DNA of 20,989 nucleotides from a virus, in the IMG/VR virus record IMGVR_UViG_3300017773_000191, positions 1 to 20,989 of that record. The stretch is one strand, 5' to 3'. The translations under genes and the position numbers were made by a program. The notes under the pieces were generated by a model that saw only the letters and a program-made list of their open reading frames with translations, was not told where the DNA came from and did not search any database. This document shows, piece by piece, positions 426 to 20,989 of this stretch (the stretch's first letter is position 1; every line of letters starts with the position of its first letter).

Positions 426-791
426 ATGCCTAAGTTAAAACGTGATTATGTAAAGTATGTACGAGACAAGGCAAAGTCCAAGTATGAAAAGGGTTCCTCT
501 TGCAGAATTTGCGGTGCAACAGAGCAGTTAGATTTTCACCATTTTTACAGTCTAACACCTTTGTTGAACAAGTGGTTGAAAGATAACAATCACAATCCTG
601 AGTACATACAAGCACTTCGGGAAGACTTTATAGAAGAACATCATGCTGAGCTATATGAACACACAGTTACATTGTGTCACAAGCATCACTTAAAACTTCA
701 CTCAATTTATGGTAAAGATCCTGCGCTAACAACAGCAAAAAAGCAGATGCGCTGGGTAGAGATTCAAAGAGAAAAACATGGCTTGGTATAA
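426..791 (+). CDS. HNH endonuclease (terminase-associated)
   Basis: A 121-residue HNH-family nuclease. C26-x2-C29 and C84-x2-H87 are likely structural zinc ligands, and the DFHH segment (H38, H39) and the HKHHLKLH segment (H85-H92) supply the HNH catalytic and metal-binding histidines. The start ATG at 426 follows purine-rich AAGGA at 410-414 and a second AAAGGA that lies very close to the ATG. The stop overlaps the portal start by 14 nt, so the two are translationally coupled. HNH proteins next to terminase genes are common in HK97-like phages, and in HK97 the HNH protein gp74 is known to aid packaging with the terminase. That role is inferred here; a free-standing homing endonuclease is the alternative, but the tight overlap with portal and the own promoter fit a resident gene better. 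Confidence 0.85.
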   Translation: MPKLKRDYVKYVRDKAKSKYEKGSSCRICGATEQLDFHHFYSLTPLLNKWLKDNNHNPEYIQALREDFIEEHHAELYEHTVTLCHKHHLKLHSIYGKDPALTTAKKQMRWVEIQREKHGLV

Positions 792-1965: not shown

Positions 1966-2273
1966 TGATTACACCTACCAGACGAAGAATAGTTCATGAA
2001 CAAGTTGCAATGTTATTAGCAGAACACGGCATAGAAAAGATTTCTAATGAAACCGATTTTTTGGAACATAACATCCCTTCTTGTAATAATATGACTGATT
2101 TTAGAAAAATCTTTAATCATTGGAACAACATGATTAGTGTACTTGATCGAGAATTCCCAGATCTAATGGGTTTATATAGATCTAAAAAAGCTACACCAAA
2201 GCCAAAAGCTACACCAAAGCCAAAAGCTGCGGCTAAGCCTGCTGCGAAACCAGCAGTTAAGAAAGGAAAATAG
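1965..2273 (+). CDS. Small protein with histone-like Lys/Ala/Pro tail
   Basis: A 102-residue protein I cannot assign to a named family. Residues 1-70 look like a small soluble alpha-helical domain (MITPTRRRIVHEQVAMLLAE at the start, with FRKIFNHWNNMI further on). From about residue 73 the chain becomes low-complexity and strongly basic (KATPKPKATPKPKAAAKPA and onward), resembling histone H1 or bacterial HU-tail sequences. At DNA level the tail contains an 18-bp direct duplication at 2186-2221. The gene overlaps the portal stop by 1 nt and ends 2 nt before the protease/capsid start, whose Shine-Dalgarno AAGGA (2263-2267) lies inside its tail. The position suggests a head protein. A DNA-contacting or portal/scaffold-associated role is inference only. 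Confidence 0.6.
   Translation: MITPTRRRIVHEQVAMLLAEHGIEKISNETDFLEHNIPSCNNMTDFRKIFNHWNNMISVLDREFPDLMGLYRSKKATPKPKATPKPKAAAKPAAKPAVKKGK
2186..2221 (+). repeat. 18-bp tandem duplication encoding KATPKP repeats
   Basis: The 18-bp unit AAAAGCTACACCAAAGCC occurs twice in perfect tandem (2186-2203 and 2204-2221) and begins a third, diverging copy. It encodes the repeated KATPKP in the basic tail of the 102-residue protein and could expand or contract in frame. Confidence 0.9.
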
Positions 2274-2275
2274 TT

Positions 2276-4315
2276 ATGAATAAACTATTTAATTTAACGT
2301 CTACTTTCAAATCTCACGAAACCGATGACGGTTCTGTGATGATTCGTGGTATGGCAAGCACTGCTGATTTTGATCGCGCGGGTGACTCAATATCTGCTGA
2401 AGCTTGGACAAAGGGTGGACTTGCAAATTTTGAAAAAAATCCAATTATCTTATTTAATCACGATTATGATAAGCCAATTGGTAGAGCCACAGGTCTGAAA
2501 GCCGGACCAGATGGACTAGAGTTAGAATGTAAGATTAGTAAGGCGGCGCCTGCTAATGTTGCACAACTTGTTAAAGACGGTGTTCTTGGAGCCTTTTCTG
2601 TTGGTTTTCGAGTCAAGGACGCTGATTACTTAAAGGAAACCGACGGACTAATGATTAAGGACGCTGAGCTGTTTGAGGTATCGGTAGTATCTGTACCATG
2701 CAACCAATCAGCTACTTTTTCGCTCGCGAAATCATTTGACTCAGATGAAGAGTACAATGAATTCAAAAAAACTTTCACAAATCGTGTAGATCTAGCCGGT
2801 CAGTCTCTGGCTAAAGACGAAGTTAATACTTCTAGCGTAGGTAGTGACACACCGAAAAGCGCGGAAGAAAAATCCGCAGATCAGGAGATCATGATGGATA
2901 ATAAAGACATCGACTTGGAAGCTTTCGCAAAACAAGTAGCAGAAGATACTGCTGCTAAGATTGCTATGAAGCAAGCCGAGCAAAAAGCAGCTGAAGAAGC
3001 ACAAGCTAAAGCAGCTCAAGAAGCATCTGAAGCGAAAGCTTTAGAAGCAGAATCAATTAAAAGTGTAGTAAACTCTGGTGTTGCAACTGGCGTTGAAAAA
3101 CTTATGGCAGACGTTGACGCTAAAATGTCTGAAAAAGACGCTTCTCTACAAGAAGTTATGGAAACTTTCCGTAATGAACTTACAGAGAAGAAAGCTGAAA
3201 TCGAAGCTATGCAAAACAGCAAAAAAACTTTTGCTGATCGTAAATCATCAGGTGACCTAAGTTCGTTTGGTAAAGAGTTCCTAAATGCTAAACTTTTAGG
3301 TGCTATTACTAATAAAGGTTTCGACACTGCCTATGGTCGTGGCGTTATCGAAAAAGCAGGCGTTGACGTTGCAGACGCAGCTTCTGGCTTAAACACTATT
3401 ATTTCTAATACCTTTGTTGACGAAGTATCTTATGCAAGCCAACTAGGCGATCTTTTTGACGAACTAGCTGTAAGTTCAGGTAAAACTGTACTTCCTATTT
3501 CTAAAAAGCCTGCAGCGGCTGTTTTCAATACGGGCGGTTTCACTGATACTACTTCATTGACTGACACAGGTACTGGATCAGACGGTTACTCTTTCGACGA
3601 CGTTACTGTTTCAGCCTATCGTCTAATCGCAGGTACTTCTCTAAGCAATGACCTAGATGAGCAATTAGTTGTATCACTATTGCCACAGCTTACTAAGCAG
3701 CTTGCAAAAGCTCACGCTGTAGCAATCGATAAAGCTATTCTTCTTGGTCATGGCTCTACAGACCCTGCTAGTGGTATTAAAGGTCTAATTGGTAAAGAGA
3801 ATACTCAAAGTGTTGCCAATCTAGCAAATGGTTTTGCTACAGGTACCGCGACCACTGGTCTTGTGGGTGCAGCAACAGAGCGTCGTCCTACTCCGGCTCA
3901 GTTAGCAGGCTTACGCTCTAACTTAGGTGCTTATGGACAGAACACTAATGATCTAGCTATCATTGTTGCTCCAGACGTTTATTACTCACTCATTCATACA
4001 ACTGGATTTACTGACATCTCAGAAATTGGTAGCGATCTAGCTACTAAACTAACTGGTGAAGTTGGTAGTATCTTCGGTATTAAGGTTGTAGTTTCTGACC
4101 TTATGCCTACAGCTACATCATTGAATGTTGCAGGTATGATGGTTAATACTGCTAACTTTGTACGTCCACGTCTTGGTGGTGTAAACTTCGAGACTGAGTA
4201 CTCTGTTGTTAATCAGAAGACTAACCTTGTTGCTAGTCAGTCAGTTGGTTTCGACCGATTGGTTGCAGATAATGCTTCTGCTTCGATTATTCGTTACCCA
4301 GCAGCATCATCATAA
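2276..4315 (+). CDS. Prohead protease - major capsid protein fusion
   Basis: A single 679-residue frame combines functions that are separate genes in HK97. Residues 1-155 are an S78-type prohead protease: FNHDYDKPIG carries the likely catalytic His62, GAFSVGF the likely nucleophile Ser108, and ELFEVSVVSVP the third acidic residue. Residues about 156-206 form a Ser/Glu/Lys-rich linker. Residues about 207-325 are an Ala/Glu/Lys-rich coiled coil like the scaffolding delta domain. Residues about 330-679 are an HK97-fold capsid protein (DTAYGRGVIEKAGVDVADAA, VDEVSYASQLGDLF, ending NASASIIRYPAASS). The start ATG has AAGGA 8 nt upstream. A strong internal start at residue 206/207 is listed separately. 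A terminator follows closely. Arginine codons in the capsid part are almost all CGT/CGC, unlike the AGA-rich neighbours, which fits very high expression. Protease and capsid families are secure; processing sites are not visible. Confidence 0.9.
   Translation: MNKLFNLTSTFKSHETDDGSVMIRGMASTADFDRAGDSISAEAWTKGGLANFEKNPIILFNHDYDKPIGRATGLKAGPDGLELECKISKAAPANVAQLVKDGVLGAFSVGFRVKDADYLKETDGLMIKDAELFEVSVVSVPCNQSATFSLAKSFDSDEEYNEFKKTFTNRVDLAGQSLAKDEVNTSSVGSDTPKSAEEKSADQEIMMDNKDIDLEAFAKQVAEDTAAKIAMKQAEQKAAEEAQAKAAQEASEAKALEAESIKSVVNSGVATGVEKLMADVDAKMSEKDASLQEVMETFRNELTEKKAEIEAMQNSKKTFADRKSSGDLSSFGKEFLNAKLLGAITNKGFDTAYGRGVIEKAGVDVADAASGLNTIISNTFVDEVSYASQLGDLFDELAVSSGKTVLPISKKPAAAVFNTGGFTDTTSLTDTGTGSDGYSFDDVTVSAYRLIAGTSLSNDLDEQLVVSLLPQLTKQLAKAHAVAIDKAILLGHGSTDPASGIKGLIGKENTQSVANLANGFATGTATTGLVGAATERRPTPAQLAGLRSNLGAYGQNTNDLAIIVAPDVYYSLIHTTGFTDISEIGSDLATKLTGEVGSIFGIKVVVSDLMPTATSLNVAGMMVNTANFVRPRLGGVNFETEYSVVNQKTNLVASQSVGFDRLVADNASASIIRYPAASS
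2883..2896 (+). promoter_or_regulatory. Internal ribosome binding site and double ATG in the protease/capsid frame
   Basis: AGGAG is followed by ATC and then ATGATGG, in frame with the capsid protein and located exactly at the boundary between the linker after the protease domain and the coiled-coil scaffold domain. The match to Shine-Dalgarno is better than at several real gene starts in this window, for example 4388 and 15440. Confidence 0.55.
2894..4315 (+). CDS. Possible nested product: scaffold (delta) domain plus capsid protein from an internal start
   Basis: Within the fusion frame, AGGAG at 2883-2887 is followed by two in-frame ATGs at 2891 and 2894. The second lies 6 nt from the AGGAG, an ideal distance. 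Initiation there would make a protein of about 473 residues beginning MDNKDIDLEAFAKQ. It would have a delta-like coiled coil of about 120 residues and then the HK97-fold shell domain, which is the layout of a normal capsid precursor without protease. This would solve the stoichiometry problem of a 1:1 protease-capsid fusion. The sequence shows the site; actual use is inferred. Confidence 0.5.
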   Translation: MDNKDIDLEAFAKQVAEDTAAKIAMKQAEQKAAEEAQAKAAQEASEAKALEAESIKSVVNSGVATGVEKLMADVDAKMSEKDASLQEVMETFRNELTEKKAEIEAMQNSKKTFADRKSSGDLSSFGKEFLNAKLLGAITNKGFDTAYGRGVIEKAGVDVADAASGLNTIISNTFVDEVSYASQLGDLFDELAVSSGKTVLPISKKPAAAVFNTGGFTDTTSLTDTGTGSDGYSFDDVTVSAYRLIAGTSLSNDLDEQLVVSLLPQLTKQLAKAHAVAIDKAILLGHGSTDPASGIKGLIGKENTQSVANLANGFATGTATTGLVGAATERRPTPAQLAGLRSNLGAYGQNTNDLAIIVAPDVYYSLIHTTGFTDISEIGSDLATKLTGEVGSIFGIKVVVSDLMPTATSLNVAGMMVNTANFVRPRLGGVNFETEYSVVNQKTNLVASQSVGFDRLVADNASASIIRYPAASS

Positions 4316-4334
4316 TAGTAATACTTTTACTTTT

Positions 4335-4368
4335 AAACTTCGGGGAGGTTCGCCTCCCCCAAGTTTTT
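4335..4368 (+). terminator. Intrinsic terminator after the capsid gene
   Basis: The hairpin has GGGGAGG (4342-4348), loop TTCG, and CCTCCCC (4353-4359), extended after one C/C mismatch by AAACTT pairing with AAGTTT, then TTTTT (4364-4368). It lies 20 nt after the capsid stop. It would end the HNH-to-capsid transcript or reduce expression of the connector and tail genes relative to capsid. Confidence 0.85.
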
Positions 4369-4387
4369 ACTAATGGACTTATAGAAA

Positions 4388-4999
4388 ATGGCAAATTTAA
4401 TAGCACTATCAGATTATAAAGTAGCAGAAGGTATCCAATCTACTAAAGATGATGCCAAGCTAGACTTGTTGATTAATTCTGTAAGTCAATTAGTAAAAAC
4501 TTATTGTGGAAATAGTATTGTAGATTTTTATAGTACAGCAGTAGATGGAACTTATAATAATACAAAAACAGAAACTATTAGTATTAACTGGGCTTCAAAC
4601 ATTGTACAGCTTACTGAAAGTCCCCTTGTACAGGTACATTCTGTAAAGGAACGAGATAGTTTATCTTCAGCCTATGTAACTCTTACTGCAAATGAGGACT
4701 ACTATGTTGACCTAAGTACTGATAGTATTTATAGAACTACTTCTAGTGGTTCTGCAAAGAACTGGCCCAATGGACCAGGTGCTGTAGAAGTACTTTATAA
4801 TGCAGGATATGGTTCTTGTCCACAAGACTTAAGATTAGCAGTTTTTGATTTAGTTACTTATTATCATAAAGATGAGCATAAAGCTCGTCAAACCATAGCA
4901 GGTGCGAGCATACAGAACCAGGGGTCTACAAGTCAGCGCAATAATGTAGCGTTTCCAGACCATATAAAACGTGTTCTAGACTTGTATAAAACCTTCTAA
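4388..4999 (+). CDS. Head-tail connector (HK97 gp6-like adaptor)
   Basis: A 203-residue protein at the usual connector position after the capsid gene. The N-terminus (LIALSDYKVAEGIQSTKDDA, then LDLLINSVSQLVKTYCGN) matches the helical opening of gp6/gp15-type adaptors that dock under the portal. The middle is beta-rich (TESPLVQVHSVKERDS, YYVDLSTDSIYRT). It continues with GAVEVLYNAGYG and PQDLRLAVFDLVTYYHKDE, the 'VrY.AGyg..P.dL..A...lv.y' signature of the family. The start has only a poor ribosome binding site (TTATAGAAAATG), so low translation or coupling through terminator read-through is possible. It ends with a 1-nt TAATG overlap with the next gene. Confidence 0.82.
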   Translation: MANLIALSDYKVAEGIQSTKDDAKLDLLINSVSQLVKTYCGNSIVDFYSTAVDGTYNNTKTETISINWASNIVQLTESPLVQVHSVKERDSLSSAYVTLTANEDYYVDLSTDSIYRTTSSGSAKNWPNGPGAVEVLYNAGYGSCPQDLRLAVFDLVTYYHKDEHKARQTIAGASIQNQGSTSQRNNVAFPDHIKRVLDLYKTF

Positions 5000-6384
5000 T
5001 GAGTGATACTAAGCTCAAAAATGCAACAAAGTATATTGTACAGAGAGCAACTCAAAAAGATAAAAGAAATAAAGAATCTTTAGAAAGATACGATGCTCAA
5101 CGTCATAGAGGTCAGATACTGGTTATGAACAGTAAGACTCAAGCCTCTATGTTAAAGAAGTTTTTTGATATAACTTTAAGTAAAACTGAGTTAGATCAAA
5201 TGATGTCCGAAATAGACACTTTTTTAAAAGGCAAACAACCCGAACAATTTAGAAAACTAGAAAAAGACGCGGGTGAGCAGAGAGTTAAGCACGTACAGAA
5301 GTTACTAAAACAGGCAGAAACTCAACCAGGGGATAAAGCCTATCTAGTAAATAGTTATGAAGTTGCAAAATCTCAAAAACTAGCAAAAGGGACAAAGAAT
5401 GGAGAAGCTGATAGTGTATCCGCAATCCAATCAAGGTTCGTAAATAAGTTAGAGCGAAGAAGAGATAAAAAACCTATTAGTTCTAAAGAAATTAGTAGTA
5501 AACAGCAACTAGGTCATGGTGATAGAGGTGCGGCAGCTTCCCAGTTCGGTGTGGATCGTGCTATAAGTGAAGCAGTTGCAGAGTTTAATTTAAGTGTTAA
5601 ACAAGAAGCACAGTTACGAACAATTGCTTCAAAACATAGAGAACGTTACGGAATAAAAGTAAATGTTACTCATGATCAAATGTTTACAGATGGTGGTAAG
5701 TTTAAAAAAGATTTTGCTTTCATACTTACTTACCAAGATTTTGATATAAACTCAGAAGAAGGAAAGCTAGAGAAAAAATCAAAACAAGATGCACTTGCAG
5801 AGTTTGATTTCGTTGGTCAGGAAACAAGTACTAAAGTGCGAGATGCTTTAGCTCAAACTCATTTAAATAGTTTAGCGGGTCAGAGCAGAAAAAATAAAAA
5901 AGTTAAAGGTAAAAAACGTCAAAAAATACACGAAAAGAATAAAGTAAGTGAGAGTTTTAATTTTGAACGCGAAATACACGATTCTTACCAAATACAAAAA
6001 GGTGTGTCTGCAAAAGGCGTAAAGAGAAGTAAGAAAAGAAAAACATCAGCCAGAGGTATAGCTTCTCAACCTTTAACTCTACTGGCTATTTTAAATAAAG
6101 AGCTACCAGATACTATAAGAAAAAATATGAATCCACCTGCACTTGAAAATCGGTCAGGTACTTTCGCAGATAGTGTCAGAGTTACAGATGTAAGTAGGAC
6201 TGCAAAAGGTTTTCCAAGCGTAGGCTACACATACAAAAAAAATCCTTACCAAGTGTTTGAGATGGGGTCAGGAGATCAAAGATGGGCTACTCCCGAAAGA
6301 GACCCAAGAACTTTAATTGATAGATCTATAAGAGAAATTGCAGCACAGTTTGCAATGGGTAGATTCTACACTAGGAGACAATAA
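4999..6384 (+). CDS. Large basic virion protein with neck/tail-completion-like C-terminus
   Basis: A 461-residue protein I do not recognise over its full length. Residues 1-165 are charged and helical (coiled-coil prone). Residues 170-290 form a mixed domain (QLGHGDRGAAASQFGVDRAI, VNVTHDQMF, DFAFILTYQDFDI). Residues 298-349 are a very basic segment (KNKKVKGKKRQKIHEKNK, KRSKKRKTS). The last 105 residues resemble the HK97 gp10-like head-tail joining/neck group: ENRSGTFADSVRVTDV, FPSVGYTYKKNPYQVFEMG, then RDPRTLIDRSIREIAAQ. The position between connector and tail terminator is where gp10-type neck proteins sit, but those are only about 120-190 residues, so the N-terminal 340 residues look like an addition. 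It is joined to both neighbours by 1-nt TAATG overlaps. Neck role: moderate confidence; function of the N-terminal part: unknown. Confidence 0.5.
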   Translation: MSDTKLKNATKYIVQRATQKDKRNKESLERYDAQRHRGQILVMNSKTQASMLKKFFDITLSKTELDQMMSEIDTFLKGKQPEQFRKLEKDAGEQRVKHVQKLLKQAETQPGDKAYLVNSYEVAKSQKLAKGTKNGEADSVSAIQSRFVNKLERRRDKKPISSKEISSKQQLGHGDRGAAASQFGVDRAISEAVAEFNLSVKQEAQLRTIASKHRERYGIKVNVTHDQMFTDGGKFKKDFAFILTYQDFDINSEEGKLEKKSKQDALAEFDFVGQETSTKVRDALAQTHLNSLAGQSRKNKKVKGKKRQKIHEKNKVSESFNFEREIHDSYQIQKGVSAKGVKRSKKRKTSARGIASQPLTLLAILNKELPDTIRKNMNPPALENRSGTFADSVRVTDVSRTAKGFPSVGYTYKKNPYQVFEMGSGDQRWATPERDPRTLIDRSIREIAAQFAMGRFYTRRQ

Positions 6385-6836
6385 TGGCAGCAAGAGATTA
6401 TACAACCCGACGTTTAGGTATTGTAAATGCTATTGTTGATAAATTGAAGGATATAAATGGGACTGGAGCATTCTTAACTGATTTAGGAGAGAATGTATCT
6501 CCCAGACTGAAGTTTTGGGATGAAGTGGAAGAATTTCCGGCGGTTCATCTCAATGCCGGTTCTGAGACACGAGAGTATCAAGGAAGCGGATACAAGGATA
6601 GGTTTCTTTCTATTACTCTACGCTGTTATGTACAGGATGAAGACTCTGTACTAGCCTTAGACGAATTACTAGAAGATGTGGAAACCGTACTAGAAAGCAA
6701 CTCGCGTTTAGAGTATAAAGACCGAACAGGAAATACTCAATATACGCAACAGATCACAATCATTAGTGTAGATACTGATGAAGGTGTACTAGAACCTTTA
6801 GGTGTTGGAGAAATACTTATTGAGGTTCGATACTAG
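6384..6836 (+). CDS. Tail terminator protein (lambda gpU-like)
   Basis: A 150-residue protein with the pattern of tail terminators, which cap the tail tube and join it to the head. The N-terminal helix (RRLGIVNAIVDKLKDINGTG) is followed by FWDEVEEFPAVHLNAGSETR, YKDRFLSITLRCYVQDEDS, a helix with acidic residues (LALDELLEDVETVLESN), and a final strand ending VGEILIEVRY. The 'FPavhl..G.e......g......l.l...vy' arrangement is typical. It sits just before the tail tube gene, as expected. The stop is TAG at 6834-6836 and a 61-bp gap follows. Confidence 0.75.
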   Translation: MAARDYTTRRLGIVNAIVDKLKDINGTGAFLTDLGENVSPRLKFWDEVEEFPAVHLNAGSETREYQGSGYKDRFLSITLRCYVQDEDSVLALDELLEDVETVLESNSRLEYKDRTGNTQYTQQITIISVDTDEGVLEPLGVGEILIEVRY

Positions 6837-6897
6837 AAAATGCAGGCACGAGCAAACGTTCACGTCCTAGCCTTTTCAAGATACATAGGAGAAAACT

Positions 6898-8046
6898 ATG
6901 GCTAATAATTTATTTTTTAGTAGAGACACCAGAGTAATTGTAGGCGATGGCACTACTTACTGGGAGATTCCTGTTCTTGATGGATTCTCTTTCTCTCAAG
7001 CAACAAATACTTCAGAGATTACTCTGAATGAGATGTCTTCAGCAGCAACTGGTAATGCCAGTCGTAGAGGGCGTAGAATGTTTAATGATTCTTATGCCCC
7101 TGCGGAGTGGAGCTTCTCAACATATATTCGTCCTTTCAAGTCAACCATTGATGCAGCAAATGGCTGGGACGGAACTTCTGCAGCGATGCACGCAGTAGAA
7201 GAAGTTCTTTGGGCTGCTCTTGTTGGTAATGCTGCCTTTACTGATGGAGGTGCAGATGCTAACAGTGCATGGAGCTCTAACCACGGTATAACAAACTCTG
7301 CTACTGCTTTAACCATTGACTTTGAAGATTCAAATACTTCTTCTCTTAAAGAGTTAGAAATATATTTTGTAATGGGACAAGGAGCTTACGATGCCGCGAC
7401 TCATACAATTTACAAGATCGATGGATGTTGCGTAAACGAAGCCTCTATAGAATTTGATGTTGAAGGTATTGCTACAATTAACTGGAGTGGTTTCGGAACT
7501 CTAATTTCTGAACAGGAAGGCTCTATTCCAACTGTAGCTATTTCAGAAGGAACTACAAGTACTGCCAACTTCATTCGTAATCGACTAACTACTTGTGCGA
7601 TAACTGCGACAACCGCAGAAAGTATTGTAGCTGCTTATAATCTAACTCTAACAGGCGGTAATATTACTTTTAACAATAATATTACTTTCTTAACTCCTGA
7701 GACTTTGGGTGTTATTAATCAGCCTATTGGTCACGTTACGGGTACTAGAAATATTTCTGGTAACTTTACTTGTTACTTAGGTAATCACTCTGCAGGAAGT
7801 GCAGACTTGTTTGAAGATCTGATCGAGTCTACAACCACTATTACAAACGACTTTAACTTAGTGTTTGCAATAGGCGGTTCATCTGCACCAAATGTTACGA
7901 TCACTTTGCCAACTTGTCACTTAGAGATACCTACTCATTCTATTGAAGACATTATATCTCTTGAGACTAACTTCCATGCGCTACCATCAACTATTGACGG
8001 AGCAGATGAAGCAAGCATTGTTTATGCAGGTCCTACCTTAACATAG
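6898..8046 (+). CDS. Major tail tube protein, apparently internally duplicated
   Basis: A 382-residue beta-rich protein preceded by a good AGGAGA site (6887-6892). It follows the tail terminator and precedes the tail chaperones, the place of the tube subunit. The first half (about 25-203) has the tube-type order: DGFSFSQATNTSEITLNE, a polymerisation-loop-like stretch (GNASRRGRRMFNDSYAPAEW), FSTYIRPF, a helix (MHAVEEVLWAALVG), LKELEIYFVMGQ, and CCVNEASIEFDVEGIATINW. The second half (about 245-362) repeats this order in shorter form: LTGGNITFNNNITFL, GTRNISGNFTCYLG, the helix ADLFEDLIEST, NDFNLVFAIGG, and TCHLEIPTHSIEDIISLETN. At 382 residues it is about twice a simple tube subunit. Siphophage T5 has a duplicated tube protein (pb6) that forms trimeric pseudo-hexamers, and the same may apply here. 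Confidence 0.8.
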   Translation: MANNLFFSRDTRVIVGDGTTYWEIPVLDGFSFSQATNTSEITLNEMSSAATGNASRRGRRMFNDSYAPAEWSFSTYIRPFKSTIDAANGWDGTSAAMHAVEEVLWAALVGNAAFTDGGADANSAWSSNHGITNSATALTIDFEDSNTSSLKELEIYFVMGQGAYDAATHTIYKIDGCCVNEASIEFDVEGIATINWSGFGTLISEQEGSIPTVAISEGTTSTANFIRNRLTTCAITATTAESIVAAYNLTLTGGNITFNNNITFLTPETLGVINQPIGHVTGTRNISGNFTCYLGNHSAGSADLFEDLIESTTTITNDFNLVFAIGGSSAPNVTITLPTCHLEIPTHSIEDIISLETNFHALPSTIDGADEASIVYAGPTLT

Positions 8047-11900: not shown

Positions 11901-12465
11901 CGGAGAAAGTACAGTTTCAGATGCCGTAGAAAATATGACAGGTGATGGAGACGGCGCATTATCCTCCTTCAGTAAAGATATTAAAGAAACTTTAGGTGCA
12001 GAAGCCCCCTTCTTATCAAAACTAAAAGATACTTTCAAGTCTGGAGGAGATTTCTTTTCAACTGCGTTCGGCGAAGTATTCTCAGGACTAGGTGAAATTG
12101 GGGGCGGTCTGCTAAGCATATTTGGTTTTGCAAGTGGAGGTATAGCCTCTCCAGGCAAGAAAGTACCCGGATATTCTACAGGAGGAGTTGCAAAAGGGTC
12201 TAAACAAGGCTATCCTGCAGTTCTTCATGGTACAGAAGCAGTTGTACCTTTACCTAACGGGAAGTCAATTCCCGTTGAGATGACAAGCGGAGGAAATACT
12301 CAAAACAATGTTGTTGTAAATGTTTCAACAGATGGAAGTGTACAAACACAATCAGATGCTCCAGATACAGAAGCATTAGGTAAGGCAGTAGCAGCAGCAG
12401 TTAAAGAAGAACTACAAAATCAAAAACGATCAGGCGGTATTCTTAATCCGTACGGAGCAGCATAA
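8998..12465 (+). CDS. Tape measure protein
   Basis: The 1155-residue protein is the longest complete gene here and sits directly after the chaperones. It sets tail length and is ejected with the DNA. Residues 1-68 are charged; a hydrophobic segment spans about 69-91 (GLVGAYATIAATVFATTAAF). A long Ala-rich helical region follows with the tape-measure-like ATGQGMRSLTREIQTAS and LFDELGI-type segment (ELLDELGITLRLADA). A second hydrophobic segment is at about 465-490 (MAGIIGIIMMVFDLL). Helical and coiled regions continue to about 900. Gly-rich C-terminal segments include ASGGIASPGKKVPGYSTGGV and YPAVLHGTEAVVPLPNGKS (about 1043-1094), a conserved tape measure ending. No peptidase or muramidase motif was recognised. 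By comparison with lambda (853 residues, about 135-150 nm tail), a tail of roughly 170-200 nm is inferred. Confidence 0.93.
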   Translation: MAKKQKVEIDVIVDDKGTNKKVALESKKAAKGLDDTAKSAHTADRNLKGAAQASANGTKNFSKMSQGMGGLVGAYATIAATVFATTAAFQALKTAADFRVIKESQVAFSAATGQGMRSLTREIQTASDNMLNFQAASEAAAIGIASGLSGSQLNELSEGAANVSKILGRDVTDSFNRLVRGVTKAEPELLDELGITLRLADAQENYATKLKISAKDLSNFQKKQAVYTEVQTQLEEKYNAVADATEMSANAISQLAVAFDKVLNPVKDFFALIAEPVAEFFSQNVRSLSIVMGLLAVPLLKSVIPGLEGFGAAAKQSAEDATKAFKQTKGEIDELAKSKKSISADPVKAGKSALSGVDAPTGSGAALLKSGKKPNQRQLASMRRFAREGKGIVKQMSASQRRDYLAAIESMIQGKTKLGIKVKNVGKQIQTSWKITTKRMEMVWQKTMAKMSTAATKMANGINKVMKMAGIIGIIMMVFDLLKMAANALGLMKPDERVQAYAAEVEGLTQALKEHNKEFKEFAKTQEALTEKGFNPTKNSMAAFGGLVDAYVPKITKMMDLLNNPVTFKREMEDIVKLGGKEVISLEERMKRMKELQKTMSFTESYKQLNNTTITEGSPTYNRERRKAGKDAPGLLDKLVTDKADVNAATEQMAQSLKVLKGGLEATKMASTQAGGRFLTLLNMLIDGEKLTPALTKEFKELGKQFSEAGQKATFVKMQLKEVTKQYTAQINGIKFLKTGQTDLLKLLRDTASTIRGMDAYKGRAEELILLDEQIDKIERLQTIEIGFLNEKLRLQGIIAGAKIGATPMEAKELERQKKLLEVEIKRNNIIAKLNEAEGSLDPAMQANYQHQLMMLNFQEESLQRQIDRAAVLGDTLKAAFETNMASGIEELITGAESSFTDFLGKMGENVLKEGAKELSRNLTQDLMGGLFGKKSSPEEKMKTAMKEGGEIAAQQIKDALSGKLTTTGESTVSDAVENMTGDGDGALSSFSKDIKETLGAEAPFLSKLKDTFKSGGDFFSTAFGEVFSGLGEIGGGLLSIFGFASGGIASPGKKVPGYSTGGVAKGSKQGYPAVLHGTEAVVPLPNGKSIPVEMTSGGNTQNNVVVNVSTDGSVQTQSDAPDTEALGKAVAAAVKEELQNQKRSGGILNPYGAA

Positions 12466-12842
12466 TGACAATAGGCTTTAATGTAGGGGGAACACTCGGT
12501 ATTGTAACCCCCGATAAATCAATGACTCGATCTAGTAAGCCAAATCTTTTAACAGCAACATTTGGTGATGGATACGAGCAAAGAGCCGTAGATGGTATAA
12601 ATCATTTAACTGAAACTTATACCGCAAGTTTTAAAACCAGAGGGAAGGCAGACATTGATGATATAGTAACATATTTGGAAAGTACAAATGGAGTTACAGA
12701 TTTTGATTTTACTATTCCTGATACGAATTCGGCAGGAGATAAAAAAACAATTAAAGTTGTATTCGTAGACTACAGTATTACCTATGAGTATGATAATTTT
12801 TATAGTTTAAATGTTAATTTAAGAAGGGTGTATGAACCATAA
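12465..12842 (+). CDS. Minor tail protein M-like (distal tail)
   Basis: A 125-residue protein of the phage minor tail (lambda gpM-type) group, a component of the distal tail between tube and tip. The visible pattern is SSKPNLLTATFGDGYEQRAV followed by DGINHLTETYTASFKTRG (family 'p.v....fGdGYeqr...G.n.....w...f'), then a helix IDDIVTYLESTNGVTDFDFT and C-terminal strands ending NFYSLNVNLRRVYEP. It lies directly after the tape measure with 1-nt TAATG overlaps on both sides, and before the L-like gene, as in lambda. Confidence 0.88.
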   Translation: MTIGFNVGGTLGIVTPDKSMTRSSKPNLLTATFGDGYEQRAVDGINHLTETYTASFKTRGKADIDDIVTYLESTNGVTDFDFTIPDTNSAGDKKTIKVVFVDYSITYEYDNFYSLNVNLRRVYEP

Positions 12843-14050
12843 TGACTGATGTAATTGCAACAGATTTACAAGGCCAACAGATTGAAAGTCCTATCGTTGA
12901 CTTGTTCGAGCTAACACTACCTTCGGGTTCTGTAGTTTACTTTCATCCTGGAAAAGATGACAGTTTATCAGATGTACAATTTAAATCAAAAGATGCAAAT
13001 AATAGTGGAAATTATACTGTAAATACATATACCGCTATACCTGCGGCTTTGGATGGTATGGAAATACAAGCAGACGGAGCAATTTCAAGACCTGCAATCA
13101 GTATTGCAAACGTGGGTCCTACTATATTAGCAAATAATCCTAGTCTTAAGTATTCGGACTTAGTAGGCCAGAATGTGATAAAGAGACAAACTTTAGCCAA
13201 GTATTTAGTAGGGGGCTCAGCATATGATAGCACTGCTACAACACCTCCAATGGAACTAGCGTCTGTAAAGTATAAAATTGATAGAGTATCTTCAGAAACA
13301 AATGTAGCTATAGTATTTGAACTAGCAGTTGCTTATGACTTAGAAGGTATTCAACTGCCTAGAAGAAAGGTGGTTGGGAAATATTGCTCATGGATGTATC
13401 AGGGTTTAAATATTTATGGCAAGGGTGGATGTACAGCGAGTTTAGATGGAGAAATTGTTTATAAGACACCCGGAAAAGGAAATACAACAAAAACAACTAC
13501 TATACTAACAGATATTGATAATAATTTTTTAGTAAGAATATCAGAGATAGACTTTAGTACTGTATCTAACTGGTTACAAAATACGCCTTACACTAAAGAC
13601 AGCAATTATGTAAAAACAGGTTCTGGTGCTAGTACACGAGCATGGCAATGTATTCAAGCCCACACGTCTCATGCTACGAATAACCATCCCACAGATTCTG
13701 GAGTAGGATCTAGTTATTGGGCGGAAATAAGACCTTATGCAGACTATGCAAATACTGGAACATATGCTTTAGGGTATTTAGTAAAACAAAGTATTACTCT
13801 AAATAATAAAACAGTAACAGCAATCTGGGAATGTATATTAGCGCATACATCCAGCTCTTCAACTATACCAGAGTTAGGAAGCCCTTATTGGAAAAGAATA
13901 GATTTATGTGGAAAAACTTTAACTTCCTGTAAGTGTAAGTTTAATTCTCTACCTAAAGACAACTCGGTAAATGGTAGTTTACCTAGTGGTAACAAGAGCG
14001 ATGCTCATCCACTTCCTTTTGGAGGTTTCCCTTCAACAGGAAGATTTTAG
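12842..14050 (+). CDS. Minor tail protein L-like with two inserted carbohydrate-binding-type modules
   Basis: A 402-residue protein, much longer than lambda gpL (232). Residues 1-200 are gpL-like: N-terminal LFELTLPSGSVVYFHPG, SRPAISIANVGP, and QLPRRKVVGKYCSWMYQG with C182 and C197. The C-terminal part has LCGKTLTSCKCKFN (C356, C363, C365) and the ending LPFGGFPSTGRF. Lambda gpL coordinates an Fe-S cluster with conserved cysteines, and the C-x6-C pair at 356/363 matches its second pair. Between the pairs lie two tandem modules, about 242-297 and 299-353. Each has aromatic residues and the same core, W-x-C-I-x-A-H-T-S (W268-S276 and W329-S337), then a Tyr-Trp pair near the end, the pattern of CBM5/12 chitin-binding-type modules. 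A sugar-binding role at the tail tip is inferred. Confidence 0.82.
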   Translation: MTDVIATDLQGQQIESPIVDLFELTLPSGSVVYFHPGKDDSLSDVQFKSKDANNSGNYTVNTYTAIPAALDGMEIQADGAISRPAISIANVGPTILANNPSLKYSDLVGQNVIKRQTLAKYLVGGSAYDSTATTPPMELASVKYKIDRVSSETNVAIVFELAVAYDLEGIQLPRRKVVGKYCSWMYQGLNIYGKGGCTASLDGEIVYKTPGKGNTTKTTTILTDIDNNFLVRISEIDFSTVSNWLQNTPYTKDSNYVKTGSGASTRAWQCIQAHTSHATNNHPTDSGVGSSYWAEIRPYADYANTGTYALGYLVKQSITLNNKTVTAIWECILAHTSSSSTIPELGSPYWKRIDLCGKTLTSCKCKFNSLPKDNSVNGSLPSGNKSDAHPLPFGGFPSTGRF

Positions 14051-14749
14051 ATGATAGAGTTTTTATCAGAAATAGAAAACCATTTTAAAGAATGTTACCC
14101 AAGAGAAGGCTGTGGTGTCTTAGCTGTATCAAAGGGCAAACTTAAATGGTTTCCTTGTACAAATATAGCAGAAGATAATGAAGATTTTATAATAGACTCC
14201 AGAGAATATATAAAAATATCTCAAAAATACGATATTGTAGGAGTAGTACACAGTCATCCAGATAGTACAGCAGATCCAAGCGATATGGATATAAAATATT
14301 GTAATGCTACCGGAATTACATACTATATATTTAGTTATCCGGAAATGGATATGCAAATAATTAATCCCGAAAAAGCAGAGAAAGATTTATATGGAAGGGA
14401 GTATGAATTTGGAGTAAATGATTGCTTTGAGGCAGCAAGAGATTATTATATATCTAAAGGTTTAAAAATACCAAATAGGCCTTTGTTTGAAGACGATTGG
14501 TGGGAAAAGGGTTTAAACTATTTTACGGATGAATATATTTCTTCGTGGGGCTTTAAAGTTGCAGAAGGTAATATGCAAGAGGGCGACTTAATAGTATTTA
14601 CAATCCAGGCGCACATACCAAACCATTGTGGCGTATATTTAGGAAACGATATTTTTTATCATCATGCAGAACACAGGCTTTCATGCCGAGAGAATTTATA
14701 TCCTTTATGGAAGAAAAACATAACCGGAGTTTACAGATATGAAACGTAA
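14051..14749 (+). CDS. Tail tip peptidase K-like: JAMM + NlpC/P60 domains
   Basis: A 232-residue protein of the lambda gpK type with two peptidase domains. Residues 1-105 form a JAMM/MPN metalloprotease: E19 in YPREGCG, then VGVVHSHP with H67 and H69, and S77 and D80 completing E...H-x-H-P-x6-S-x2-D, so the zinc site looks intact. Residues 115-232 are NlpC/P60-like: C125 in FGVNDCFEAARDYY, the GDLIVF strand, H192 in PNHCGVYLG, and FYHHAEHRLSC. The cysteine-histidine pair of a peptidoglycan endopeptidase is present. A role in cell wall penetration or tip processing is known for the family. The start ATG directly abuts the L-like stop; the end overlaps the I-like gene by 11 nt, as K and I genes overlap in lambda. 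Confidence 0.9.
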   Translation: MIEFLSEIENHFKECYPREGCGVLAVSKGKLKWFPCTNIAEDNEDFIIDSREYIKISQKYDIVGVVHSHPDSTADPSDMDIKYCNATGITYYIFSYPEMDMQIINPEKAEKDLYGREYEFGVNDCFEAARDYYISKGLKIPNRPLFEDDWWEKGLNYFTDEYISSWGFKVAEGNMQEGDLIVFTIQAHIPNHCGVYLGNDIFYHHAEHRLSCRENLYPLWKKNITGVYRYET

Positions 14750-15437
14750 TGTATATTTACAAGGAGAATTAGGGAAAAAGTTCGGAGAAAAATTCGTTGT
14801 AGATTCTGATAATTTACAGGATATTTTTAAGTGCATCTCCGTAAATAAACCTTCGTTTAGACCTTACCTTATGGAGTGTGAGGAAAACGGTATTGACTTT
14901 TCAGTAGAATTTCAAGGAGAGACGGTAGGGGAAGAAGACTTTTTATTTCCTATAAAACCAGGAGATGTTACAGTATCTATTATTCCTGCGGGCTCAAAGA
15001 AAGTAGGAAAAATTATTGCAGCAGCATTTCTGGTATTTTATGTTCTTCCTGCAATGGGTGCGAAAGCCGGCACTATAACAGGTACGGGACCTGGAGGGTC
15101 CGTAACTTTAGGAGATAAGATTGCGGCAGGTGTAAAAGCAAAAGGAGGAACTTTTGTAAGTAGTTTAGCAACTAATTTAGCACTTACAGGTTTACAAGAG
15201 TTGATGGCTCAGGATCCTTCTGTAGATGGAGATGCTCCTGCAAACTATATGTTAGATGGTGACACTCAGAATATTATGGAGGGGGATCCTATACCAGTAT
15301 TATATGGTCGTTTAAAAGTCCCTGGAAGGCCTATCGCTGTAGATATAAATAATTATGAAAGTTTTGTTAATAGTGGACACAGTATCAATGCTGCCGGAGA
15401 TATATCGGCAAATGCCAGTATGGAGAATGCGAGTTAA
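14739..15437 (+). CDS. Tail assembly protein I-like
   Basis: A 232-residue protein of the lambda gpI tail assembly group, needed for tail tip formation with J. Residues 1-85 look like the ubiquitin-like N-terminal fold (RNVYLQGELGKKFGEKF, DFLFPIKPGDVTVSIIPAGS). A hydrophobic, probably membrane-spanning or core segment is at about 89-108 (VGKIIAAAFLVFYVLPAMGA). It is followed by a Gly/Ala/Thr-rich stretch and the family-typical NIMEGDPIPVLYGRLKVPG (about 179-197). The C-terminal 25 residues are polar and low in complexity. It overlaps the K-like gene by 11 nt and ends 2 nt before the J-like start. Confidence 0.85.
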   Translation: MKRNVYLQGELGKKFGEKFVVDSDNLQDIFKCISVNKPSFRPYLMECEENGIDFSVEFQGETVGEEDFLFPIKPGDVTVSIIPAGSKKVGKIIAAAFLVFYVLPAMGAKAGTITGTGPGGSVTLGDKIAAGVKAKGGTFVSSLATNLALTGLQELMAQDPSVDGDAPANYMLDGDTQNIMEGDPIPVLYGRLKVPGRPIAVDINNYESFVNSGHSINAAGDISANASMENAS

Positions 15438-15439
15438 AT

Positions 15440-18400
15440 ATGAGTGATGGAACAGGAAAAATAGGTTCAAGATCTGGAATAGGTCCAACAACCCTAACTA
15501 GAACAGTAGGGGATAGACAGTATGTGTCTGTAACAGACGTACTATCAGAAGGCCCTATTGAGGGGTTAGTAAATGGTACTGCATCAGTATTTTTAAATAA
15601 TGATACGCTTGATGATATAGACAACAGTCCTAATAATCTTTCTCGAGGTAATATGCTACTTACCCTTGAGAAAGGTTCAAAAGATGGTACAGTTATAAAC
15701 TCAAATTTAACAAGCCCTTTTCCCACACTAGCAGAGAAAGAAGACTACCAACAGGACGATGCAGAGATGTATGTTCTAGTACGAAATACTTATCCTGCAC
15801 AAACAGTAACAGCAGTTAGTGATAGGAAGCCCGGAGGAGGTGATAGAAGATATATAGAACTTAGTACTACCGACAGCTCTAACTTTTTCCGTAAAGAAAT
15901 GCGTACACTTACAAAAAATAATTATGGAAGATATGTAGCAACAGAAGAGGATAAACGAACTAAGCCTGTAAGACTTATTCCTACCACCGACGGTGTAACA
16001 CTAAATAATGCACCTATAGAAGGTTTTATATATGAGGGTGATTTTGATGGTAACGCAACTACCACTGATACTGTACGTTTTCAAGGCTATGGTGAGTTTG
16101 AGAAAGTAATTCCTAATGGAACATATAATGTAGAAATTGATTACTATGCTAGACTAGCCATAGGTACTGGCGGAACAACTGTTAAACTTGCAGACAACTG
16201 GGCATTTCCGCCAAGTGCAGGCTCAGGCACATCTACAAACTATAAATTTGATATTCAAGGCCTATTGAAAGATAAGACCCAAAGAGTAGATAGTAACTAT
16301 AGTAGACACTATGACGAGTCAAGTATAGAATTTAGAACAGGTCATTTAGGGCAGCAGCCTATACAAGCAATGCTAGAGGGCGGGAGCGCTTTAACTTTTT
16401 CTCCTACAGGTACAGAATTAAATCAAATTTCAGACGGCTCTTTAACACTACCTTCCAATGATCCAGGTACTGGAAGTGCTGTTATTTTAAATGGCTTGGT
16501 CTCTGGCAGTAGCCACTTTAATCTAACATCCTCAAAAATGGCAACTGTAGATAGCGTAAAATTTAATATATCATATCCTGGAGGCTTCAAAAGAATAAAT
16601 AGTGGAGGGGAAGACGCAACTACAGCAGCTGTGTACTATGTAGACATAGGATTTAAGAACCCTGGAGAGAATACTTTTGGAGACTATATAATTATAAACG
16701 AAGAACTTACTCATAAAGGTAAGTTTAATAATGCAGTTGTTTTCCAACACTCAATAAATCTACAACCTTTTAGACCTTTTGACGATTTTAGAATACGTAT
16801 TAGAAGAAGAACTTCTGAATCTGGTGGAGGCTATACTTCTGACGTTAAAAGAAAGGCGAGCCATACTAACATAACAAGAGCTACTGTTGCTCAAACAACT
16901 TCTATTTTTAATGAGAAGTTGTTTCACCCTATGACGGCTTTAGCCGGTCTAACTTTTTCAACAGTTAATCATCAGCAAATACCCGCAAGGACTTATGACT
17001 GCCGAGGATTAAGAATAAAGGTACCTTCTAACTACGTTACAAGGGAAGAAAATGATAGTCTTCAAGCTACCTATAAAAGAAATACAACTACAGGTGCCGT
17101 AGAAACATCAGAACAAGATTGGGACGGTTCTTTCAGAAGTGAGCTGATATATACGGATAATCCTGCTTGGATTTTCTTCGATATGCTAACTAATAATAGA
17201 TACGGTTTAGGAGATTTTTTAGACGCTACAGATATAGATAAATATGCTCTTTATAGAATCGCAAGATACTGTGATGAGTTAGTAGACGATGGGAAAGGGG
17301 GACAAGAGCCTCGTTATAGATTAAACGCATATTTTACTAAGCAAGTAGATGCGTTTAAAGTTATGAAAGATCTTGCAACAAGTTTTATAGGTATGTTATA
17401 CTTCCTAGATGGAAAAGTATTCCCAGTTATAGATGCGCCTAGTACTCCTGTATACTCCTTTACAAAAGGTAATGTTATAAATGGAGCATTCTCATATGAA
17501 AGCACTGGTAGTAAAACCAGACCAAATCAAATTATTGTAAAATGGAATAATCCACAAAATAACTATATTTTAGAGCCTTTAATAGTAGAGGACTCTTTAA
17601 ATATCGCAGAAACACAGAGAATCATAAGCCAGGAGTCTGTAGCTTTTGGTTGTACTTCAGAAGGGCAGGCAAGTAGATACGGAAAGTGGAAACTGTGGAC
17701 TGCTGTAAATCAGAATGAAATTGTTTCATTTCAAACGGGTATAAATGGCTCGTATTTAGCCCCTGGAGATGTTGTAAATGTTCAGGATAGCGATAGAAGT
17801 GCCGCAAGATTTGGAGGAAGAATCAGCAAAGGCGGAACTAGAAATACAACAACAGTACCTTTAGATAGTCCTGTAACGTTGAGCTCTGGAACCAGTGCTT
17901 CAAACTATGAACTTAGTATAATTGTTAATAAAGCATCTCCAATAGCACTAAAAGAAGTAACAGTAGATAGTACTACTTACTCTCCAGGCGACATAGTTCC
18001 ACAAGCCTATATAGATAGTAATGGAGATGGTACACGAACTTTACAAAATATAGATACAGAAGTAAAAGCAGCAAATGCATTTACTAGTTCCTCAGGAGCC
18101 ACTCCAGTATTATTAAACTGGAAAGATGATTTTAGGGTCGAAACTAAAGAACTTCACTCAAGCACTACAATAGGTAGCCCTATATCGTCTCTAACAGTTG
18201 CTTCTGCGTTTTCAGAAACACCTTCTAGCGAAGATGTGTGGGTTCTAAAAGGCACTGACGCAGGTTTAAATATATTAGGAAGTAGCAAGCAATACAAAAT
18301 ACTTTCTATAGCTCAAGGCGATAAAAACATTTATGATATTACAGCAGCAGAACATTATAATGATAAGTATTCTGCTATTGAAGGCGTATTCAGAACATAT

Positions 18401-20989
18401 GTTCCTAATGCTACAATAGACTCTGGAGAAGCTGCTATATCAAACCATTATGAAGGTACTGTTCCAAAAGCACAAAGTGTAAAAGCAATACCAGGTAGAG
18501 ATAAGTTAAATGATTTAGAGCAAATAATCCTTGATTGGGAACACGCTAGCTCTACAATAAACAGTTCAATTAAATTTGAGTTTTTAAAGGGTTATGAAAT
18601 AGTAACTGATATTCCAGAATACCCTGATCCCATTTTTGTAGCTAAAGATGCCGATACTCTTTACGCCTTCACAGGTGTTGAAGCAGGAACTTATAATTTT
18701 GCTATAAGAACGGTGGACAATGAGGGAAGAACTTCTTCCCCTGTAGTAATACAGTTTACACTGCTAGAAGAAGAGTTTGAAAAACTTGCACTAAATGTTG
18801 CTGCAGGTGGTTTCTTAGATGGCGGATATAAGGATATTAATGCTTCTGGCGCAAACGGCATATTTGAGTTTAAGAGCAGAGGATATACCTTTACTCCTCC
18901 TCAAGTTTTTGCAAATGAAATTATAAATCCAGAGTCCTCAGATGTTCTCACAGATGATTTTAAACAAGATTGCTCAGGTATTCCAGCAATAGCTTGGACA
19001 GCAACAGATGCAGAAAATGCAGTTGGTAGATTTATACACGAACATCATTACCTATTAATGGATAATGACGGTACTTCTTCCAATGCCCAAAATAATTATA
19101 TAAAATTAATAAAACATAATATCGCTCTTACTAATGTTGTTAACGGCTCTAATGATGCCGGACTTACAACTGTTCCTTATTGGTTTGATACTGGAAATGG
19201 TTCAGACACTCTTGGTCTTATCAGAAAAAACGGTACTATTACTAAAGTTGCTCAATCCAATAAAATAACAGGCGCAAATACTTTATTTACCACACAAATG
19301 GCAGTAGGTCAAATTATATGTGCAACTAACAATAGTGATTCTGTAGGGGATTCTCTAGCAGCCAACCAAGTACTGGCAGTATACACTGTTATTTCTATCG
19401 AATCTGACACTGAACTTACTGTTAGTAGTAGTGTGGGGTCTTTTAGCGGTACGAATGTCGGAACTAATAACTTAAGATTTGATTTAAAACAAGATGCAGT
19501 TATTTCTAGTATTTATAAGGATTCTGCTGATTCTCAGTTTAAATTTTTCCATTATGCAGTTAGATCTTTAGAAGGCTTACCTGCCCCTTATTTTGAGTAT
19601 TCCAATGGTAATCATGGGGTGTTTATTAATCCCGACGGCACTCCAGAATGGGCAGCTAGTGGGGGCACACTTACTTTAAGAGAGGGTGAAACAACTTTAA
19701 CACTAAATGGTACTACTCAAAGTACTAGCTTTCCAACTACATTCGGAACTTATAATTTAGATATTACTAAAGTATATGGCAATGATTTAACAGAACCTGT
19801 CATAACAAATACAAGTAATGTTGTAGCTTTAGGAACTTTCGGAGGTTCTTTAGAGAATACCTCTGTATATAAACTTACAGCATACGTTACCGGCTTAACA
19901 GGCAAACAATTTACACTAAATACAGATATTACTCTAGTTCCTATAACTGATGGCCCACTAGGTCCACAGGGCGATCTTGGTCCTCAAGGACCTGATGGTG
20001 ATGTTGGTCCACAAGGTGACCCAGGTGCTAAAGGTGAGATCGGCCCTCAAGGTAGTCAAGGTGATACTGGTGCTCAGGGTGCTAAAGGTGCTCAAGGTGA
20101 TGTTGGTCCTCAAGGTAGTCAAGGTGATACTGGTGCTCAAGGTGGTAAAGGTGGTAAAGGTGATCTAGGTCCTCAAGGTAGTCAAGGTGATACTGGTCCA
20201 CAAGGTGATCCAGGTGCTAAAGGTGAGGTAGGTGATAAAGGTACAAAAGGTGATCAAGGTGCTAAAGGTGATACTGGTGCTAAAGGTACAAAAGGTGATC
20301 AAGGTGCTAAAGGTGATCTAGGTGCTAAAGGTGAGACAGGTGACAAGGGTACTAAAGGTGATCAAGGTGCTAAGGGTGAAGTAGGTGCTAAAGGTGAGGT
20401 AGGTGATAAAGGTACAAAAGGTGATCAAGGTGCTAAAGGTGACGTAGGTGCTAAAGGTGATACAGGTGCTAAAGGTGTTACCGGTCCACAAGGCGATCAA
20501 GGTGCTAAAGGTGAAGTAGGTACTAAAGGTGATGTAGGTGCTAAAGGTGATACAGGTGCTAAAGGTGTTACAGGTCCACAAGGCGATAAAGGTGCTAAAG
20601 GTGAAGTAGGTACTAAAGGTGATGTAGGTGCTAAAGGTGATACTGGTGCAAAAGGTGCTTTAGGTCCACAAGGTGATCAAGGTGCTAAAGGTGATCAGGG
20701 TGAGCAGGGTGCTAAAGGTGAAGTAGGTGCTAAAGGTGATCAAGGTGCTAAGGGTGATCAAGGTGCTAAAGGTGTTACTGGTGCTCAAGGCGATGAAGGT
20801 GCTAAAGGTGAAGTAGGTACTAAAGGTGACGTAGGTACTAAAGGTGATACTGGTGCTAAAGGTGCTCAAGGTGTGACCGGTCCGCAAGGCGATCAAGGTG
20901 CTAAAGGTACTAAAGGTGATCAAGGTGCTAAAGGTGACGTAGGTGCTAAAGGTGACGTAGGTGCTAAAGGTGAACAAGGTGCCAAAGGT
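15440..20989 (+). CDS. J-like tail tip / host specificity protein with collagen-like fibre (3' end outside window)
   Basis: The frame is open from ATG at 15440 to the window end, 1850 codons with no stop found on reading it through, and it continues beyond. N-terminal QYVSVTDVLSEGPIEGLVNG (about 28-47) is the classic gpJ opening. DWDGSF and NPAWIFFDMLTNNRYGLGDF (about 558-595), followed by RLNAYFTKQVDAFKVMKDLA and YGKWKLWTA, mark the tip-J hub domain. Residues about 1013-1110 look like a fibronectin III-type domain (LEQIILDWEH, AGTYNFAIRTVDNEG). Residues 1111-1504 are beta-rich and not assigned. From residue 1505 a perfect Gly-X-Y tract of 115 triplets runs to the edge. gpJ is a trimer in lambda, which fits a collagen triple helix. 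The start has a weak ribosome binding site 2 nt after the I-like stop, so translation is probably coupled. This is the likely receptor-contacting protein; the receptor-binding end is not visible. Confidence 0.9.
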   Translation, partial: MSDGTGKIGSRSGIGPTTLTRTVGDRQYVSVTDVLSEGPIEGLVNGTASVFLNNDTLDDIDNSPNNLSRGNMLLTLEKGSKDGTVINSNLTSPFPTLAEKEDYQQDDAEMYVLVRNTYPAQTVTAVSDRKPGGGDRRYIELSTTDSSNFFRKEMRTLTKNNYGRYVATEEDKRTKPVRLIPTTDGVTLNNAPIEGFIYEGDFDGNATTTDTVRFQGYGEFEKVIPNGTYNVEIDYYARLAIGTGGTTVKLADNWAFPPSAGSGTSTNYKFDIQGLLKDKTQRVDSNYSRHYDESSIEFRTGHLGQQPIQAMLEGGSALTFSPTGTELNQISDGSLTLPSNDPGTGSAVILNGLVSGSSHFNLTSSKMATVDSVKFNISYPGGFKRINSGGEDATTAAVYYVDIGFKNPGENTFGDYIIINEELTHKGKFNNAVVFQHSINLQPFRPFDDFRIRIRRRTSESGGGYTSDVKRKASHTNITRATVAQTTSIFNEKLFHPMTALAGLTFSTVNHQQIPARTYDCRGLRIKVPSNYVTREENDSLQATYKRNTTTGAVETSEQDWDGSFRSELIYTDNPAWIFFDMLTNNRYGLGDFLDATDIDKYALYRIARYCDELVDDGKGGQEPRYRLNAYFTKQVDAFKVMKDLATSFIGMLYFLDGKVFPVIDAPSTPVYSFTKGNVINGAFSYESTGSKTRPNQIIVKWNNPQNNYILEPLIVEDSLNIAETQRIISQESVAFGCTSEGQASRYGKWKLWTAVNQNEIVSFQTGINGSYLAPGDVVNVQDSDRSAARFGGRISKGGTRNTTTVPLDSPVTLSSGTSASNYELSIIVNKASPIALKEVTVDSTTYSPGDIVPQAYIDSNGDGTRTLQNIDTEVKAANAFTSSSGATPVLLNWKDDFRVETKELHSSTTIGSPISSLTVASAFSETPSSEDVWVLKGTDAGLNILGSSKQYKILSIAQGDKNIYDITAAEHYNDKYSAIEGVFRTYVPNATIDSGEAAISNHYEGTVPKAQSVKAIPGRDKLNDLEQIILDWEHASSTINSSIKFEFLKGYEIVTDIPEYPDPIFVAKDADTLYAFTGVEAGTYNFAIRTVDNEGRTSSPVVIQFTLLEEEFEKLALNVAAGGFLDGGYKDINASGANGIFEFKSRGYTFTPPQVFANEIINPESSDVLTDDFKQDCSGIPAIAWTATDAENAVGRFIHEHHYLLMDNDGTSSNAQNNYIKLIKHNIALTNVVNGSNDAGLTTVPYWFDTGNGSDTLGLIRKNGTITKVAQSNKITGANTLFTTQMAVGQIICATNNSDSVGDSLAANQVLAVYTVISIESDTELTVSSSVGSFSGTNVGTNNLRFDLKQDAVISSIYKDSADSQFKFFHYAVRSLEGLPAPYFEYSNGNHGVFINPDGTPEWAASGGTLTLREGETTLTLNGTTQSTSFPTTFGTYNLDITKVYGNDLTEPVITNTSNVVALGTFGGSLENTSVYKLTAYVTGLTGKQFTLNTDITLVPITDGPLGPQGDLGPQGPDGDVGPQGDPGAKGEIGPQGSQGDTGAQGAKGAQGDVGPQGSQGDTGAQGGKGGKGDLGPQGSQGDTGPQGDPGAKGEVGDKGTKGDQGAKGDTGAKGTKGDQGAKGDLGAKGETGDKGTKGDQGAKGEVGAKGEVGDKGTKGDQGAKGDVGAKGDTGAKGVTGPQGDQGAKGEVGTKGDVGAKGDTGAKGVTGPQGDKGAKGEVGTKGDVGAKGDTGAKGALGPQGDQGAKGDQGEQGAKGEVGAKGDQGAKGDQGAKGVTGAQGDEGAKGEVGTKGDVGTKGDTGAKGAQGVTGPQGDQGAKGTKGDQGAKGDVGAKGDVGAKGEQGAKG
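20042..20230 (+). repeat. Three 63-bp imperfect tandem repeats in the collagen region
   Basis: Units at 20042-20104, 20105-20167 and 20168-20230 each encode seven triplets starting GPQGSQGDT followed by GAQ or GPQ; the later triplets differ. The first 36 bases of each unit are nearly identical, which indicates segmental duplication. Confidence 0.88.
20465..20644 (+). repeat. Two 90-bp near-identical tandem repeats in the collagen region
   Basis: Units 20465-20554 and 20555-20644 each encode ten triplets in the order GAK GVT GPQ GDQ/K GAK GEV GTK GDV GAK GDT and differ at only a few bases. A diverged copy starts at 20762. This is recent in-frame duplication. Confidence 0.9.

Follow-up and report, generated by a model that had tools for sequence, protein, structure and literature searches.

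A Tandem of CBM5/12-Like Modules Inserted in the Iron–Sulfur Region of a gpL-Type Phage Tail-Tip Hub

What kind of domain do the additional residues of a long gpL-type tail protein form, and what might this domain do at the tip of a phage tail? The DNA studied, here called the window, comprises 20,989 nucleotides (IMG/VR virus record IMGVR_UViG_3300017773_000191, positions 1–20,989). Its tail genes follow the order tail tube, tape measure, M, L, K, I, J, with the M-L-K-I-J part arranged as in lambda. The tape measure protein was identified by size and place, as it has no significant Pfam match. The hub gene and its neighbors are as follows.

12465..12842, + strand: gpM-like distal tail protein, upstream neighbor of the hub gene (PF05939, E 4.6e-18)
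12842..14050, + strand: gpL-type tail-tip hub with tandem-module insert, 402 aa (PF05100; phrog_18, E 1e-29; Foldseek 8iyk_L)
14051..14749, + strand: gpK-like JAB and NlpC/P60 protein, downstream neighbor of the hub gene (PF14464; PF00877; phrog_30, E 7e-72)
14739..15437, + strand: gpI-like tail assembly protein (phrog_32, E 4.6e-21)
15440..20989, + strand: gpJ-like central tip protein with collagen-like repeats (PF13550, E 3e-16; weak Ig_J match)

The product of the reading frame at 12842–14050 is a tail-tip hub protein of the lambda gpL type. It matches PF05100 over residues 57–194 with 80.8 bits (cut-off 25, E 1.1e-22), and a Foldseek search with its model finds lambda gpL (8iyk_L) with E 1.1e-9. 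The two proteins share the core fold, the gene order and the four cysteines of the Fe–S motif. At 402 residues the hub is exactly 170 residues longer than lambda gpL (232 residues), a difference that the original prediction had given correctly as about 170. The same prediction placed all of the extra residues between C197 and C356. This assignment holds for about 136 of them: the second and third cysteines are 159 residues apart in the hub versus 23 in lambda gpL, which carries no inserted domain. The remainder lies mainly in the loop between Cys1 and Cys2 and in the C-terminal tail. The following elements emerge when the hub is aligned with gpL of lambda and of nine other phages.

12842..13351, + strand: HDI-like N-terminal hub core, residues about 1–170
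13385..13387, + strand: Cys1 of the Fe–S motif, C182, aligned with lambda C173
13430..13432, + strand: Cys2 of the Fe–S motif, C197, aligned with lambda C182
13907..13909, + strand: Cys3 of the Fe–S motif, C356, aligned with lambda C205
13928..13930, + strand: Cys4 of the Fe–S motif, C363, aligned with lambda C212

The same alignment shows that the insert opens in a loop between a D-x-P motif and the Asp that precedes Cys3. The four putative [4Fe-4S] cysteines (C182, C197, C356 and C363) are invariant across a 39-sequence alignment. The role of the Fe–S cluster in gpL-type hubs is still to be characterized (PMC10721106).

The insert consists of two consecutive modules.

13559..13732, + strand: CBM5/12-like module 1, residues 240–297 (25.9 bits; AF2 models)
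13733..13900, + strand: CBM5/12-like module 2, residues 298–353 (35.7 bits; AF2 models)

The original prediction described two modules in residues 242–353 (13565–13900) that share the motif W-x-C-I-x-A-H-T-S and a terminal Trp. Both coordinates and motif proved exact, since the motif occurs exactly twice in the hub (WQCIQAHTS at 268–276 and WECILAHTS at 329–337) and the modules end with W293 and W350, respectively. As a hallmark of the family the motif did not hold up: among 87 modules, only one besides the two in the window contains it in this form. The conserved module core reads W/Y/H...Y...V...W/Y...P...W, and of the CBM5/12 core residues the terminal Trp is present in 87/87 and the Tyr in 80/87 phage modules. 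With an HMM built without the window clade, the two modules score 25.9 and 35.7 bits. When the insert was shuffled 2000 times, the highest score was 13.5 bits, so this signal is beyond chance. Judged by their sequence profiles, modules 1 and 2 are homologous to each other (hhalign probability 98.2, P 3e-14).

The window protein scores 13.9 and 15.9 bits against PF02839 (CBM5/12), which is below the curated cut-off of 26.2. PF02839 is found at E 0.05 or better in 22 of 39 relatives (best 8.4e-10), and at least two of them pass the cut-off (L048, 38.0 bits; L034, 31.0 bits). The module profile matches CBM5/12 domains near 1e-8 when searched against PDB sequences, with the Vibrio chitin oligosaccharide deacetylase VhCOD (1.5e-8), the ChiA1 domain 1ed7 (1.9e-8) and Vibrio cholerae COD (9.5e-8) at the top and chitinase B and others at lower ranks.

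For structural information we relied on AlphaFold2 models, the full-length one being computed from 39 sequences. Within this model the insert has pLDDT values of mostly about 88–96, with one block of ten residues at 69; modeled alone, it reaches pLDDT 90.6 and pTM 0.78. The modules are confidently predicted to form a folding unit of their own, apart from the gpL core. Their orientation on this core is uncertain because the full-length model has a pTM of 0.53 and residues 167–182 fall below pLDDT 50. The best Foldseek match of the insert alone is the tandem of CBM12 modules in 3wx7 (E 1.5e-4, probability 1.00), and a single module superimposes on the CBM5 domain of SmChiB (1e6p) with 2.3 Å over 56 columns. 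Structure prediction thus shows a CBM5/12 fold, as had been proposed. The overall rmsd of the tandem match to 3wx7 is about 11 Å and single modules fit far better, so that the angle between the phage modules is unlike that in the enzyme. The full-length model finds lambda gpL first, followed by the T1, JBD30 and RcGTA hubs and the Sf11 tail protein, and then 3wx7. It also matches the RcGTA and R4C hubs 6tba and 8gtc, which are absent from the 50 best PDB matches of the insert-only model; we tentatively attribute the full-length matches to the common hub core. Many phage proteins among viral predicted structures are labeled ChiA1-BD. This module type is therefore common in phage proteins, and it is the site of insertion that is unusual.

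A scan of viral contigs returned 261 relatives, of which 80 were kept. Two modules were detected in 92 of the 96 proteins scored, a redundant set in which some contigs were entered twice. A single module was found at three loci (L091, L095 and L097), and L015 gave three module hits, as large insertions split one of its modules. The L015 protein (1165–3036, 624 residues) has large extra insertions, one with a weak match, below cut-off, to the endosialidase β-barrel domain PF12195. Three further relatives (L045, L050 and L057) have an additional insertion within module 1, and L021/L022 have one between Cys1 and Cys2. In a tree calculated from the core only, a branch with 100/99 support sets the 45 insert-bearing sequences apart, and cyanophage S-2L, which has a different insert, lies on the opposite side of it. 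Since the relatives were recruited with clade-specific patterns, other gains of the insert are possible. The module pair and the core residues are kept in this one supported group down to 31% identity. The tandem of CBM5/12-like modules inside the Fe–S region, the central element of the original prediction, is hence backed by profile, fold and relatives. Among cultured phages we found none with a module-pair hub, as every record falls short of 80% query coverage. With 261 relatives in one scan, this type of hub could be used to recognize a clade of considerable size among uncultured phages. One full-length relative (L100, 5001–6212) is located on contig PBHZ01000026.1 of a metagenome-assembled genome labeled Euryarchaeota, possibly a mis-binned phage contig.

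Inserts in this region have precedents. In the hub Rcc01696 of RcGTA and the hub of roseophage R4C, a domain described as oligosaccharide-binding separates the two cysteine halves of the Fe–S domain, and the authors proposed glycan adhesion for it (PMC7296036, PMC10276861). The hub of JBD30 has its cysteines at positions 147, 156, 238 and 245, a spacing similar to that in RcGTA and R4C (PMC11445458). Between the cysteine pairs, all three hubs appear to carry a different insert, of about 80 residues. In RcGTA and R4C it is one domain of roughly 82 residues that has been likened to LKA1 gp49, whereas the window hub carries two CBM5/12-like modules. In the gpL-like protein of S-2L (L105, 648–1955), the loop that holds the modules in the window hub contains about 160 residues of unrelated sequence. 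The inserts seem to differ by lineage, with CBM5/12-like modules in the window, a different one in RcGTA and R4C, and yet another in S-2L. This comparison suggests that the Fe–S cluster holds together a domain from whose loop adhesion modules are presented. A search of titles and abstracts for CBM5/12 modules in gpL did not find this arrangement, and one for ChiA1 together with tail fibers found nothing. The CBM5/12 pair is a new variation on a known hub-insert arrangement.

The domains most similar to the modules come from chitin-active enzymes, and their contact residues allow a direct comparison. For the ChiA1 domain, the putative contact with chitin is Trp687, and His681, Thr682, Pro689 and Pro693 have also been implicated (PMC2265269). 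CBM5 domains rely on a tandem aromatic pair, either Y-W or W-W (PMC8449059). Not one of the 87 phage modules has a Trp at the position of Trp687, where a Tyr occurs in three copies of module 1 and in one of module 2; in the window, module 1 has Asn here and module 2 has Thr. Nor is the second residue of the CBM5 pair aromatic in any of the 87 modules. Module 1 of the window retains the counterparts of Gln679, His681, Thr682 and Pro689, and module 2 those of His681, Thr682 and Pro689. The ChiA1 domain (1ed7, CBM12) and the CBM5 domains of SmChiB and SgChiC thus share the core Tyr, Val, aromatic residue, Pro and terminal Trp with the phage modules, but not the chitin-contact aromatics. Like the insert, the chitin oligosaccharide deacetylase of Vibrio (3wx7, 4nz1, 8yh4) contains two modules of this fold in a row. 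Unlike the phage modules, the deacetylase modules keep the Trp687 counterpart, and their carrier is an enzyme rather than a tail hub. Since both the Trp and the aromatic pair are absent, chitin binding is unsupported and was rejected as the default function. The phage modules may even retain the fold without binding activity. A CBM fold that lacks the contact residues calls for caution in naming a host or a ligand from the fold.

As the main reading we propose, with a probability of about 0.55, that the insert equips the outer tail tip with modules for weak, multivalent adhesion to glycans. The tail tip of lambda contains three copies of gpL. With two modules of CBM5/12 fold in the loop that leads to the third Fe–S cysteine of each copy, the assembled tip would display six modules around the outer surface of its cone. 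These modules would bind weakly and multivalently to a host surface polysaccharide, such as capsule, exopolysaccharide or LPS glycan, and would act at an early stage of adsorption, when gpJ has yet to engage the irreversible receptor. The outer position is plausible by analogy, because the iron-binding domain of lambda gpL is on the outer surface (PMC10721106). Lambda and RcGTA serve as the models for this position, for the copy number and for the adhesive role. From the original idea of sugar-binding domains on the ring around the tail tip, we would thus keep the position and drop the chitin ligand. In close pairs of relatives the modules are 62% identical and the HDI core 79%. Faster divergence is expected of an exposed adhesion surface, and would equally fit relaxed constraint on a surface loop.

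A more specific version of this proposal, which we regard as tentative, is that the modules form a CBM5/12 subfamily with a remodeled face, and that the pair before Cys3 acts as a non-chitin primary adhesin in one phage clade. If this were true, adhesion modules of different kinds could be exchanged on the Fe–S domain, which would act as their general docking platform.

It seems rather unlikely that the modules bind no sugar and instead serve in protein–protein contacts or decorate the structure, as a CBM5/12 scaffold that docks a side fiber or braces the ring of gpL and gpJ. Such a role would agree with the retention of scaffold residues at the loss of the known ligand aromatics, and with a two-module architecture that is nearly fixed (92/96). 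It would also agree with gp10 of KVP40-type Vibrio myophages, a wedge protein of the baseplate in which a similar tandem occurs. In KVP40 (L098, 1754–4000) this tandem lies around residues 258–358 of gp10. The modules appear to be of the same kind (tblastn 28–30%, E about 5e-5), but the module profile is weak there (16.6 and 11.6 bits), and gp10 belongs to a contractile tail and is no gpL homologue. A structural role fits poorly with the faster divergence of the modules relative to the core and with the three single-module loci. The extra inserts inside some modules would also be uncommon in an element that is packed tightly into the structure.

Less probable still is that the loop tolerates foreign domains with little functional consequence. 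The unrelated residues of S-2L at the same place, the other stretch of about 80 residues in RcGTA, R4C and JBD30 and the additional Cys1–Cys2 insert of L021/L022 would fit such tolerance, whereas the retention of the pair and its core residues in a single supported group argues against it. Finally, binding of chitin or chitin oligosaccharides on a chitin-associated host, as originally suggested, is very improbable: the nearest solved relatives are chitin-active enzymes and several of the ChiA1 positions listed above are kept, yet the Trp687 counterpart and the aromatic pair are missing throughout.

The remainder of the window allows some additional observations. The gpJ-like reading frame is still open at the end of the window, where long collagen-like G-x-y repeats (19960–20989) close the sequence. 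The region 778–8046 is nearest to T5-like phages in its portal (41%) and major tail protein (35%), so the window combines a T5-like head and tube with the lambda-like tip genes M, L, K, I and J. The nearest T5-like phages infect enterobacteria and Vibrio. With identities of only 33–41% for the portal and major tail proteins, they are too remote to indicate the host, and the outcome also depends too much on which phages the collection contains; we rejected such an assignment. Across the N-terminal half of a 679-residue reading frame (2276–4315) there are matches to head maturation protease families, and further along to families of the major head protein, which suggests a protease–capsid fusion. 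Close to the left end, a 121-residue reading frame (426–791) with CxxC and HH motifs resembles an HNH endonuclease and adjoins a reading frame that runs off the window.
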